Position numbers and translations under genes: made by a program
Shown here: in pieces, positions 20,655-26,261 of the stretch
Position numbering within the stretch: the stretch's first letter is position 1
Layout: every line of letters begins with the position of its first letter
Notes under the pieces: generated by a model
What the model was told of the DNA's origin: nothing
What the model saw: only the letters and a program-made list of their open reading frames with translations
Databases searched by the model: none
DNA from: Candidatus Pelagibacter communis
Lineage (GTDB): Bacteria; Pseudomonadota; Alphaproteobacteria; Pelagibacterales; Pelagibacteraceae
Direction: 5' to 3'
Assembly: GCF_001179925.1 (NCBI RefSeq)
Contig: NZ_CVSF01000005.1
Span: 1-34,168 of the forward strand
DNA length: 34,168 bases

Positions 20655-22109
20655 ATGACTCTATCAATAAAAATTGATCCCCTAGGCTTTAGAGAATATG
20701 ACGCACGATGGATTTACAACAAAGATATCAATAATGAGGGAATCAAAAATTTGGGTAAAGGTCTAGGAACCCAGATTATAAAACATACCAAAAAAGAAAA
20801 TCCTAAAGTTATAGTTGGTCATGATTATAGGTCTTATAGTGTAGAAATAAAAACTGCACTTAAAAATGGTTTAATTTCAACAGGATGTTTTGTTGAAGAC
20901 ATAGGTTTATCTTTATCACCTATGGTTTATTTTGCACAATTCAAATTAGATGCCGATGCAGTAGCCATGGTTACAGCAAGTCATAATGAAAATGGTTGGA
21001 CTGGAGTAAAAATGGGTATTCAAAAAGGTTTAACCCATGCTCCTGATGAAATGGAAGAATTAAAACAAATTACATTAGATCAAAATTTTTTAAAAGGTAA
21101 AGGAAAAGAAAAAAATATAAAGAATTTTGATAAAATTTATAAGGGTGATTTAATTCAAAAAAATAAAATTAAAAAAAAAATCAAAGCAGTTGTAGGTTGT
21201 GGGAATGGTACAGCAGGAATATTTGCCCCTGATATTTTAAGAGGCATCGGTTGTGATGTGGTTGAATTAGATTGTGAACTAAATTGGAATTTTCCAAAAT
21301 ATAATCCTAATCCTGAGGATTTGGAAATGCTTCATGAAATAGCTAAAGTAGTTAAAAAAAACAATGCTGATATTGGCTTTGGTTTCGATGGTGACGGAGA
21401 TAGAGTTGGTGTAATTGATAACAATGGAAATGAAATATTTTCTGATAAGATTGGTTTAATAATTGCTAGAAATTTATCAAAAAACCATCAAAATTCAAAA
21501 TTTGTAGTGGATGTAAAATCAACTGGTTTATTTAAAAATGATGAAATCTTAAAAAAAAATAAATGTGAGACTATTTATTGGAAAACTGGACATTCTCATA
21601 TTAAAAGAAAAGTAAATCATGAAAAAGCTTTAGCTGGGTTTGAAAAAAGTGGTCATTTTTTTTTCAATCCACCCCTAGGACATGGTTATGACGATGGAAT
21701 TAACTCTGCAATACAAGTTTGTCACCTATTAGATAATCAAAATAAAAAAATGAGTGAAATAATTAAAGAACTTCCAAAAACTTTTCAGTCACCAACAATG
21801 GCTCCATATTGTAAAGATAAAGAAAAATACAAAGTTGTTGACAGCTTAGTAAAACAAATAGAAAAAATTAAAAATGATAGAATAAAGATAGATAATCAGG
21901 AAATAAAAGAAATTTTAACAGTCAATGGAATTCGATTCTCTTTTGAAGATGGTTCGTGGGGTTTAATTAGAGCGTCTTCAAATAAACCATCTTTAGTAAT
22001 TGTTACTGAAAGTCCGACTTCAAATAACAGAAAAATAGAAATTTTTAAATTTATAGATAAATTGCTTCAAAGTACCAATCAAATAGGAGAATACGACCAA
22101 AAAATTTAA
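20655..22109 (+). CDS. Phosphomannomutase/phosphoglucomutase
   Basis: This alpha-D-phosphohexomutase interconverts hexose 1- and 6-phosphates for surface polysaccharide or storage metabolism. The 484-residue protein has the four family motifs: the phosphoserine loop TASHNENG (Ser109), the magnesium site DGDGDR (245-250), the sugar-binding GFEKSGHFFF around 330 and the C-terminal phosphate-binding RASSNKPSLVI. The family resembles AlgC/ManB, which accepts both mannose and glucose. A purine-rich AAAAAAAGGTAAG lies about 15 bases before the ATG and may act as the ribosome site. The stop shares the palindrome TTAA with the convergent gene downstream. Confidence 0.92.
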   Translation: MTLSIKIDPLGFREYDARWIYNKDINNEGIKNLGKGLGTQIIKHTKKENPKVIVGHDYRSYSVEIKTALKNGLISTGCFVEDIGLSLSPMVYFAQFKLDADAVAMVTASHNENGWTGVKMGIQKGLTHAPDEMEELKQITLDQNFLKGKGKEKNIKNFDKIYKGDLIQKNKIKKKIKAVVGCGNGTAGIFAPDILRGIGCDVVELDCELNWNFPKYNPNPEDLEMLHEIAKVVKKNNADIGFGFDGDGDRVGVIDNNGNEIFSDKIGLIIARNLSKNHQNSKFVVDVKSTGLFKNDEILKKNKCETIYWKTGHSHIKRKVNHEKALAGFEKSGHFFFNPPLGHGYDDGINSAIQVCHLLDNQNKKMSEIIKELPKTFQSPTMAPYCKDKEKYKVVDSLVKQIEKIKNDRIKIDNQEIKEILTVNGIRFSFEDGSWGLIRASSNKPSLVIVTESPTSNNRKIEIFKFIDKLLQSTNQIGEYDQKI

Positions 22110-23248
22110 TTATTTTCTTTTTCTCCTTCATTTTCACTTAATTTAACTTCTTCTCCTTGCACGTCATTATTTGTATCTTTATTGTGAATTTGAGATTGAT
22201 TACTATAAAATTTTCTAATTAATTCTTCCTCTTTCTTTTTTTGTTCCTGATCAAATTTTTCTTCCCATTCTTTAATTCGTCTATTTTCCTCGACAATCCT
22301 CTTTTCTTCTTCGGCTTGACGTTTTATCTTTAATTCATTCTCCTCTTCTATTCTTCTTCTTTTCTCCTCTTCTTTTCTTAATTCTTCCTCTTGTTCTCTA
22401 AGTTCTTTTTCCTTCATTAAGCGTTCTCGCTCTTGGGATTTAATTTTCTCCTCCTTGATTCTTAATTCCTCCTCTTTGGCTCTTTGATCAGCTTGCTCTT
22501 TGAGTAATTGTCGCTCAATCTCTTGTTGTCTTTCTATTTCCAATTGTTTAAGTCTATTCTCAGTTTCTCTCAGTTTTTCTTCTTCATATTGCAATTTTCT
22601 AGCTGCCTCTCTTAATTTTTGTTCTTCATCTAATCTATTTTGTCTCTCAATTTCATTTAGCCTATTCTTTTCTTGTCTTTCTTTTTCTTTTTCATCTCTT
22701 AACTTTTGAGCTTGTATTGCTTTATTCTTTATATCTTCTTCTTTAATTCTAATTTTTTCCTCTCTAATTCTTTGTCTTTCCAGCATTCTCATTCGTAATT
22801 CTTCATCTTTTAATCTTCTAGCATCTTCTCTAATTTTTTTGGCTTCTTCATCTTTAATTTTTTGCTGTTCTATTTTAATTCTCCTTAATTCTATTTTTCT
22901 TTGCCTTTCCTCATTTTTTCTTACTTGTTTTTCATTATCAGCTAATAATTTTTGTTGGAGGAATATTTGTTTTTTTTCCTCTTTAATTTTATCTAATCTT
23001 TCTTTTTGAGCTTGTTTTTTTTCATTTAATAATTCTTTTTTTTCATCATTTTTTCTTTTCTTTTCTAATCTAATTTTCTCTTTTTCTTTTCTTTTTTTTA
23101 AGTCAATAAAATATTTTTCTACTTTTTTTTTTGTATTTTCTATTAAACCAAAAGGATTTATATCTAAATTTTTTGGGGCTTTCGGAACTAAAGATTTGAT
23201 ATTTTCTAAAATCACATTTTTTTGTTTTTGTGATTTTTTTGGACTCAT
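22106..23248 (-). CDS. Long charged single-helix/coiled-coil protein of unknown function
   Basis: I do not recognise a named family. The 380-residue protein has an ordered-looking N-terminal segment of about 50 residues (KSLVPKAPKNLDINPFGL, then ENTKKKVEKYF). From there to about residue 345 it is an almost uninterrupted Lys/Glu/Arg/Gln-rich run without proline or glycine, and then a short acidic tail. Patterns such as EEKIRIKEED and RRRIEEENELKIKRQ favour a stable ER/K-type single alpha helix or a long coiled coil of about 300 residues, roughly 45 nm if fully extended. No signal peptide or membrane segment is seen, so unlike TolA it should be cytoplasmic. The gene is purine-rich on its coding strand. 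Roles as a spacer, scaffold or cytoskeletal element are inference only. Confidence 0.75.
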   Translation of the reverse strand: MSPKKSQKQKNVILENIKSLVPKAPKNLDINPFGLIENTKKKVEKYFIDLKKRKEKEKIRLEKKRKNDEKKELLNEKKQAQKERLDKIKEEKKQIFLQQKLLADNEKQVRKNEERQRKIELRRIKIEQQKIKDEEAKKIREDARRLKDEELRMRMLERQRIREEKIRIKEEDIKNKAIQAQKLRDEKEKERQEKNRLNEIERQNRLDEEQKLREAARKLQYEEEKLRETENRLKQLEIERQQEIERQLLKEQADQRAKEEELRIKEEKIKSQERERLMKEKELREQEEELRKEEEKRRRIEEENELKIKRQAEEEKRIVEENRRIKEWEEKFDQEQKKKEEELIRKFYSNQSQIHNKDTNNDVQGEEVKLSENEGEKENN

Positions 23249-23447
23249 AATTTAAGTTAACATTTTTAAAGTAATTTAAAAATCTTTGAAAAGTTTAAAT
23301 TGGGGTTTTGATATTTGATTAGCAAAAAAATCTTATTAATTGAGTAGTATAATCGATCAATACAATCTCTACGTGTAATTTTATTTTAACTTAAATTTTT
23401 TTTTAGGATTAATAAGCAAAGAATCAGATATTAGCTTTTGTAATTTC

Positions 23448-23771
23448 ATGATTAAAAATTTTTTTTATTTATTTTGTTTTTTTTTAATTTCAAATTGCTC
23501 AATACCAAATACTGCTTTTTTTGGTCCTGTTTATACTGGTGTAAAAACAGGAAGCGTTTATCAAGCTTCACTGTCTTATAGTTCTGGCAAAATTATTAAC
23601 AATTTAGGATTACAAAATTCATTATATCAATCAGATAAATTTAAAAAATTTTCAAAAAACCCAATATTACCTGATATTCCTTTTGTAGATGAAGACCCCA
23701 AAATTCTTTTAACTTATAAAGTGAATCTTGTTGAAATTTCAAGTGTAATGGAACCTGAGCCTTTACCTTAA
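23448..23771 (+). CDS. Small predicted lipoprotein, unknown function
   Basis: The 107-residue product begins with a lysine and a hydrophobic stretch (FFYLFCFFLIS) leading to a possible lipobox ISNC, with the lipidated cysteine at about residue 17. Asparagine at -1 is atypical for the lipobox but the overall shape fits. The mature part has FFGPVYTGVKTGSVYQASLSY, rich in Gly/Ser/Tyr, and ends acidic and proline-rich (VMEPEPLP). It would sit on a membrane facing the periplasm. It is divergent from the helical protein, with a 199-base gap in which no other gene is visible and only loose promoter-like matches (TATAAT at 23350) occur. No function is proposed. Confidence 0.7.
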   Translation: MIKNFFYLFCFFLISNCSIPNTAFFGPVYTGVKTGSVYQASLSYSSGKIINNLGLQNSLYQSDKFKKFSKNPILPDIPFVDEDPKILLTYKVNLVEISSVMEPEPLP

Positions 23772-23840
23772 TTAATAACTTTATTTTTCAACTTTTTCGC
23801 GATTACATTTTCATTAAGAATCAATTAATTTTTTATTTAA

Positions 23841-23868
23841 GGGTGGTAGAGGGAGACTGAAACCACCC
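23841..23868. other. Isolated GC-rich hairpin element between convergent genes
   Basis: In a region of about 20-30% GC, bases 23840-23880 reach about 61%. GGGTGGT (23841-23847) pairs perfectly with ACCACCC (23862-23868) around a 14-base loop, and AAGGG/CCCTT offers an alternative outer stem. There is no T-run after it on either strand, so it is not a standard terminator. CGATTACA occurs on both sides (23800-23807 and 23878-23885). It could be a bidirectional transcript end, a small RNA or a remnant of an insertion. Confidence 0.5.
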
Positions 23869-23880
23869 CGACCCCTTCGA

Positions 23881-25721: not shown

Positions 25722-26261
25722 TTATTGGTTTGAAGTGTCGTTATCTTCTAAATTTTCTTGCGCTTCTTGTTGATTTTCTGTTTCAGAAACCTCATCTAAA
25801 GAAACATTGCCCTCTTCAGAAACGTTTTCTTCATCTACCGATCCTTCGACATCAGGTTTGGTAGTTTGTGAAAGTTCAGCTAAATCTTCCTGAGAAACTT
25901 GAATTTTTTCGGGTGCTTTTCTAGCTCTTTTAGATGGTAGAATTGGAGTACCACTTTTTGAAATTTCGCCTTTGTATAGACTTTCAAAATCATCACCTAC
26001 TTCTTCATCATCTTCAGATCCATCATCAATTTGTTCGACATGTTTTCTTAATTTATAAACTGCACTTTCAGTTAAATCTGGAACTTTGATTTTTTTTTCA
26101 GCAATTTCTCTTAAAGCAATGACTGTATTCTTATCATTATCTCTATCTAGTGTAGGTTCTATACCTGAATTTAATTGAGTTGCTCTCTCTTTAGCTACTA
26201 AAACTAACTCGTAAGGACTATCTACTTTATCTATACAATCTTCCACTGTAACTCTCGCCAT
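25722..26261 (-). CDS. rpoZ: RNA polymerase omega subunit with long acidic tail
   Basis: Omega assists folding and assembly of beta-prime. The first 75 residues are typical ([41 protein letters not shown]). The rest, about 100 residues, is an acidic Glu/Asp/Asn/Gln/Ser-rich tail ([20 protein letters not shown], then repeated Glu and Asn stretches) that should be disordered. At 179 residues it is about twice the E. coli length. The promoter lies just before the ATG and leaves almost no leader. dusA follows after 22 bases. Tail function is unknown. Confidence 0.95.

Follow-up and report, generated by a model that had tools for sequence, protein, structure and literature searches.

Among described proteins, the closest counterparts of the rod analysed here are the single alpha-helix domains (SAH, also CSAH or ER-K) of proteins such as myosins, together with de novo AEEEKKK helices. 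In the available parts of the source, such helices are recognized by a Glu/Lys/Arg-rich composition, the lack of a hydrophobic seam and pairs of opposite charges at i+3 and i+4 (PMC5347031), and occurrences in bacteria are reported in the accessible text of a second paper (PMC5378345). The KER region of CAF-1, as presented in the portion available, is a eukaryotic K/E/R-rich SAH of 128 angstrom that has been shown to bind DNA, and both its length and its phase matter (PMC10335832). A third group comprises the crescentin/FilP-type rod proteins, which the accessible text of a survey characterizes as long helical rods without other known domains (PMC2680258).

Our comparison reveals that a SAR11 protein shares with SAH domains, so far as the available texts describe them, the K/E/R-rich composition with opposite charges at i+3/i+4 (PMC5347031, PMC5378345), the absence of a 3.5-residue hydrophobic seam and a predicted long single helix. 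This is distinct from those domains, which are described as linkers between other domains, whereas the SAR11 protein consists of almost nothing but the helix. Furthermore, unlike the SAH domains of these texts, the SAR11 rod holds a charge phase of about 22/3 residues over some 30 periods, keeps a near-constant core length, carries two invariant amphipathic nodes and is found in one bacterial genus only. CAF-1 KER is likewise of the K/E/R-rich SAH type, and while its DNA binding is established in the text available (PMC10335832), the SAR11 rod offers a charge gradient only; a search of the PDB, in which the relation was sought, gave no sequence match between the two. The rod resembles crescentin and FilP in being a long helix without other known domains, but, by comparison with what the survey text gives, it lacks a heptad seam, its predicted helix contains no linkers and its occurrence is patchy.

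The window, that is, the whole stretch of 34,168 nucleotides under analysis, is contig C5 of a 1.01-Mb draft genome of Candidatus Pelagibacter communis that is 86% complete. The first-pass annotation had placed a 380-residue protein at 22106–23248, and a minus-strand ORF running from ATG to TAA indeed occupies that interval (Table 1). It lies tail-to-tail with a phosphomannomutase gene, the two stops overlapping by 4 nt. The phosphomannomutase is present in 49 of 61 genomes of the genus, and the DNA behind it was read in 47 of the 48 other genomes (G079, a partial match, was left out; L063 and L087 are short regions). A K/E/R/Q-rich ORF of 347–386 aa, 40–64% identical to the window rod, is found convergent with the phosphomannomutase at the same place in 12 of these 47 related regions. 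Among the best 80 of 192 relatives, the phosphomannomutase is convergent with the rod in 75, with a gap of at most 23 nt in 67 of the 75 and often a 4-nt overlap or direct abutment; for the other 5 of the 80, the phosphomannomutase marker peptide was not seen in the available flank. The neighbours of the rod gene are convergent or divergent, giving no hint of an operon.

Table 1. Positions of the rod gene, its convergent neighbour and the parts of the rod protein within the window
Feature	Positions	Strand	Basis
Rod gene, 380 aa, charge-striped single-helix protein	22106..23248	-	ORF, homologues, dN/dS, AlphaFold2
Phosphomannomutase/phosphoglucomutase family gene, convergent neighbour marking the locus	20655..22109	+	Pfam domains I-IV
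Residues 1-31: variable Lys-rich head, poorly conserved; NPFGL starts at residue 31	23156..23248	-	
Residues 32-348: one predicted uninterrupted alpha helix, ~48 nm	22205..23155	-	AlphaFold2
Residues 89-308: phase-locked charge period of ~7.33 residues (22/3), inside the constant-length stretch 88-351	22325..22984	-	
Residues 201-240: central conserved node, possible short dimer contact	22529..22648	-	
Residues 321-348: C-terminal conserved node, ENRRIKEWExKFDxEQxxKEEELIxKFY	22205..22288	-	
Residues 349-380: acidic, variable, low-confidence tail	22109..22204	-	

The stretch between the phosphomannomutase and a TauE-type gene (window 22106–23880; regions L045–L091) is a small accessory-gene spot. 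At this place L062 has an ORF resembling a DmdA/aminomethyltransferase-type protein and L065 an 846-aa epimerase-like ORF together with a glycosyltransferase-like ORF, all named by reading the sequence, and some other genomes have little between the two flanking genes. In the window, a 107-aa lipoprotein-like ORF (23448–23771, plus strand; SNCS...GPVYTGVKTGSVYQASLSYSSGK) is divergent from the rod gene, and a similar ORF adjoins the rod in L048 and L056; the window copy matched no profile in Pfam or NCBIfam. Further along, the minus strand at 25722–26261 holds an RpoZ (omega)-like ORF, so named from its sequence, with a long acidic extension and 179 aa in total, and similar ORFs occur in many phosphomannomutase-flanking regions of relatives.

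The protein had been described as nearly all one charged helix tens of nanometres long, with about 300 K/E/R/Q-patterned residues free of Pro and Gly, and both statements are borne out. Residues 61–350 of the window rod contain neither Pro nor Gly, K/E/R/Q make up 67% of residues 61–345, and in the same 61–350 stretch of 85 homologues (the best 80 of 192 relatives from a contig scan, biased to closer ones, plus five others) there are four Gly in all, in three sequences. AlphaFold2, run on the window rod as a monomer only with an alignment of 20 sequences, predicts a short helix at residues 8–20 followed by a single helix whose 317 residues, at 0.15 nm each, give the length in Table 1. The mean pLDDT is 79 and the pTM 0.27. 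Confidence is highest over residues 51–250, where every 10-residue block averages above 90; it ranges from 61 to 82 over 261–340 (61 at 291–310, 78 and 73 at 321–340) and drops to 49 at 341–350, so that the long uninterrupted helix is predicted with low confidence at 281–310 and 341–350. By inspection, no signal peptide or membrane helix is seen in the rod sequence.

The charges along this helix are ordered beyond chance. Acidic residues recur with a period of 7.35 residues (power 24.7 against a 99% level of 9.8 from shuffled maxima) and basic residues with a period of 7.40 (15.6 against 10.3, 99% shuffle level). The autocorrelation of charge peaks at lags 7, 15, 22, 29, 36, 44, 51, 58–59, 66 and 73, which are multiples of 22/3. 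The phase at 7.33 stays within 107–121 degrees in five overlapping 88-residue windows from residue 45 to 308 and is held over about 220 residues, although the first of these windows (45–132) has its own best charge period at 5.90. The full-length charge power of 16.9 at 7.32 exceeds the 99% level of 15.3 from 500 phase-slipped versions, in which 44-residue blocks were shifted in phase. The window rod has 81 pairs of opposite charges at i+3 and 80 at i+4, where shuffled sequences give 53.6 and 53.3 (sd about 5.6). The charge period is 7.24–7.38 in five long rods tested singly and 7.10 and 7.22 in two short rods (a sister protein introduced below), and all seven exceed their own 95% shuffle level.

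By comparison, the 3.5-residue hydrophobic periodicity of a canonical coiled coil is absent along the rod and is present in the SMC control. At 3.4–3.6 residues the hydrophobic power of the five long rods is 0.9–2.8, whereas two SMC stretches from the rods' own genus give 9.8 and 12.3 (SMC 171–480 was chosen as the coil region). Hydrophobic residues (I/L/M/F/V/W/Y) make up 20% of residues 61–345, which seems high for a pure SAH. What hydrophobic order exists is weak or local: the family-average signal at 7.30 is 9.2 against a 99% level of 8.9, sequence L074 shows 11.7 at 7.28 and 7.0 at 3.64, sequence L219 shows 8.7 at 7.24 and 5.2 at 3.64, and the window rod shows 8.6 at 5.86 (95% level 8.4). 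In view of these signals a weak, non-heptad association of rods is conceivable. The helical hydrophobic moment falls below p = 0.05 only at 211–234 (p 0.018) among 21 overlapping stretches and approaches significance at 316–354 (p 0.050–0.055), all uncorrected. The exceptions to a seamless helix are thus the weak signal near 7.3 and the local nodes at 201–240 and 321–348. The first-pass annotation had left a choice between a single alpha helix and a coiled coil; the periodicity test with its SMC control disfavours the canonical coiled coil, and on balance the charge pattern is that of a single alpha-helix.

Conservation is concentrated at the two nodes. Mean entropy is 0.48 at residues 201–240 and 0.54 at 321–348, compared with 1.79 at 1–60 and 2.34 at 349–380. 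The central node is formed by L206, I/L212, A215, A216, L219, Y221, L226, L233 and L236, of which L219, Y221 and L226 are invariant in all 85 homologues (best 80 of 192 plus five), as are W328, F332, F347 and Y348 of the C-terminal node and its WE..FD..[QH] pattern. The N-terminal NPFGL segment had been proposed as the anchoring part of the protein, a proposal that the alignment does not support: NPF occurs within the first 60 residues in 10 of the same 85, the N-terminal entropy is high, and the conserved parts are instead the centre and the C-terminal W/F/Y motif. Length does not vary freely, since residues 88–351 span exactly 264 residues in 84 of the 85 (best 80 of 192 plus five); the sole exception, L074, has 22 additional residues, which fall elsewhere in a wider combined alignment of the long types. 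The rod gene is under purifying selection, with a median dN/dS of 0.134 (range 0.021–0.318) over 821 pairs of core sequences with dS 0.2–1.2, drawn from 81 sequences and hence non-independent. Computation therefore supports the reality of the gene as well as its conserved length, charge phase, predicted helix and conserved nodes.

The family turned up in one genus only. All of the best 80 of 192 relatives are labelled Candidatus Pelagibacterales, 75 of them Pelagibacteraceae (5 of these also Candidatus Pelagibacter) and 5 to order only, which places the rod in SAR11. A search of the order gave matches in 59 of 297 genomes, all from one of the 11 genera, and a search of the class in 2 of 192 genomes, both from the same genus, so that no relatives were found beyond the genus. 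Of the 14 rows from the first search, which used 68 N-terminal residues as the query, 9 (E 6e-4 to 0.5) fell at loci elsewhere that carry no such rod, and these were dropped. Across the 217 genomes of the genus with a completeness of at least 85%, that of the window among them, a combined profile finds the long rod in 62, with one match each; a less complete genome, G153, has two long-rod matches. Two of the 62 matches (G462 and G409) are partial, and as those of G462 contain stops, damaged copies may exist. The long rod occurs in 35 of the 113 genomes that are at least 90% complete, and is therefore not a gene that every SAR11 cell requires. When the window-type (type I) rod is mapped onto a tree of 30 phosphomannomutases, the best tree calls for five changes in its presence, of which well-supported branches force three, so that the type I rod looks like an accessory gene coming and going at a fixed place. 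Purifying selection, conserved locus and conserved length agree with the earlier suggestion of a gene retained in a streamlined genome, a suggestion that this accessory distribution qualifies.

Rods occupy three or more loci within the genus. A type II long rod lies at another locus in G178, G393, G328 and G086 (4 of the 62, the loci of the other 58 having been checked in part), next to a 740-aa hydroxyacyl-CoA-dehydrogenase-like gene and permease-like genes, as named from sequence reading. A type III long rod (G118, L226) lies at yet another; the copy at L226:4418-5548 contains neighbouring 22-residue repeats (DLEVQRQKEEEQKL) at 187 and 209 that differ at one residue, and the repeat core recurs upstream at 85, which could be a picture of rod growth in 22-residue steps. 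Types I–III can be aligned ungapped as far as the C-terminal node, a stretch of about 260 residues, and have W328, E329, F332, D333 and Q336 in common. When only the C-terminal motif was used as the query (46 genomes), a sister protein came to light: a short rod of about 240–290 aa that carries the motif KEWExxFD internally; the form common to short and long rods is K[EQ]WExxFD. One such protein, of 244 aa, is encoded in the window's own genome at G000:C64:4936-5670 (L241:4936-5670, minus strand); its motif is KEWEEKFD, it ends in a conserved C-terminus of its own (LExFdvdK..N), and its gene adjoins a 431-aa ORF that reads as MFS transporter-like. The short rod is found in 50 of 115 genomes of the genus. 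Among 113 good genomes, 18 have both rods, 17 the long only, 31 the short only and 47 neither, with no significant association between the two (Fisher p 0.31). Since these 47 include G329, in which neither rod was found, no such rod is required by every member of the genus; patchy occurrence together with the damaged-looking G462 copy indicates that the function of the rod is dispensable for the genus.

The window rod matched no profile in Pfam, NCBIfam, PHROGs or PADLOC (E 0.01) and no PDB sequence (E 0.001); fourteen long rods searched against Pfam and the short rod against PADLOC also gave no match, and the literature searched contained no description of the family. A phage origin was rejected, as a scan of viral contigs returned 439 pattern matches and no relative and PHROGs gave no match, and a defence protein was rejected for want of a PADLOC match. 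With SAHs already reported in bacteria and no counterpart in the databases and literature searched, what is new is a free-standing, phase-locked, SAH-like rod family of SAR11.

Several other accounts of the rod have to be weighed. That it is an ordinary low-complexity charged protein with no precise structural role, a product of repeat drift or a hydrophilin- or LEA-like filler, would agree with the K/E/R/Q-rich composition in a window of 29% GC, the variable head and tail and the accessory occurrence. The 11-residue arithmetic is also LEA-like, 22/3 being 11/3 doubled. Nevertheless, we consider this account very unlikely: the constant 264 residues in 84 of 85 homologues (best 80 of 192 plus five), dN/dS of about 0.13, W/F/D/Q positions invariant across long types I–III and the coherent charge phase all argue against it, and constant length, dN/dS and invariant residues rule out repeat drift. 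A role along nucleic acid, as a length ruler or nucleoid spacer comparable to CAF-1 KER, is a serious rival because net charge runs from basic to acidic along the chain, with family means of +6.4, +7.8, +6.0, +4.0, +0.6, -3.4, -1.9 and -4.8 in eight successive unequal segments. The importance of length and phase in CAF-1 KER, as given in the accessible text, would also fit a rod of constant length (PMC10335832). We rate such a role as improbable, as we do its specific form, in which the basic N-terminal half or more would lie along DNA or RNA and the acidic C-terminal node would dock a partner: the 7.33-residue alternation alone gives no continuous basic face, the net charge is only about +15 over 380 aa, and no known DNA-binding domain was found in Pfam or NCBIfam.

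SAR11 is a curved alphaproteobacterium, in which the rod could be a crescentin- or intermediate-filament-like cytoskeletal protein that pairs as a coiled coil into filaments shaping or stiffening the cell. The central Leu/Ala patch is heptad-like, and a 2008 survey by COILS (Bagchi et al.) counted two rod-domain proteins of unassigned function in P. ubique, although the available text of that survey does not describe the rod family (PMC2680258). G328 carries a type II rod, a long helix without other known domains that would suit the survey criterion, and this rod may be one of the two. Yet the rod lacks the hydrophobic seam that SMC of its genus displays, SAHs are reportedly mistaken for coiled coils by predictors, according to the accessible text (PMC5378345), and 47 of 113 good genomes without either rod argue against a general role in cell shape; we therefore regard a filament of this kind as unlikely. 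Distinctly less probable is an arrangement in which the near-exact 22/3-residue charge phase would allow identical long rods to associate laterally, offset by half a period, in a minimal cytoskeletal or spacer lattice held together electrostatically and not by a coiled-coil seam, the rods forming an uncatalogued SAR11 superfamily of long types I–III and the short type, united by K[EQ]WExxFD. If true, this lattice would explain why the sole change in type I core length is 22 residues.

Our best explanation, to which we give about an even chance, is that the protein is a stand-alone, charge-striped SAH-type rod of about 45–48 nm that bears two contact nodes and functions as a strut, spacer or cross-linker. 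Acidic and basic patches would follow one another in turn, one full cycle taking about 7.33 residues, equal to two helical turns, so that salt bridges from i to i+3 and i+4 can form along the whole helix and would keep it straight without a partner strand. The amphipathic nodes hold the majority of the invariant large residues and are likely to be the surfaces through which the rod makes contact: the central node may pair with itself, the nodes may dock partners, or both. We infer a cytoplasmic protein, monomeric or locally paired, with partners engaged by such pairing or docking; a rigid helix of fixed length with two nodes would most likely serve as a strut, spacer or cross-linker.

SAR11 bacteria rank with the smallest and most abundant cells on the planet, their genomes lack most extras, and a rod of about 45 nm equals a quarter or more of the cell width. 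The role of the family is thus probably mechanical or spatial. The rods provide a natural bacterial SAH whose length and helical phase are held nearly constant under selection, and with it a clean test of whether SAHs serve solely to link domains or can also act as exact rulers or as units of a lattice.
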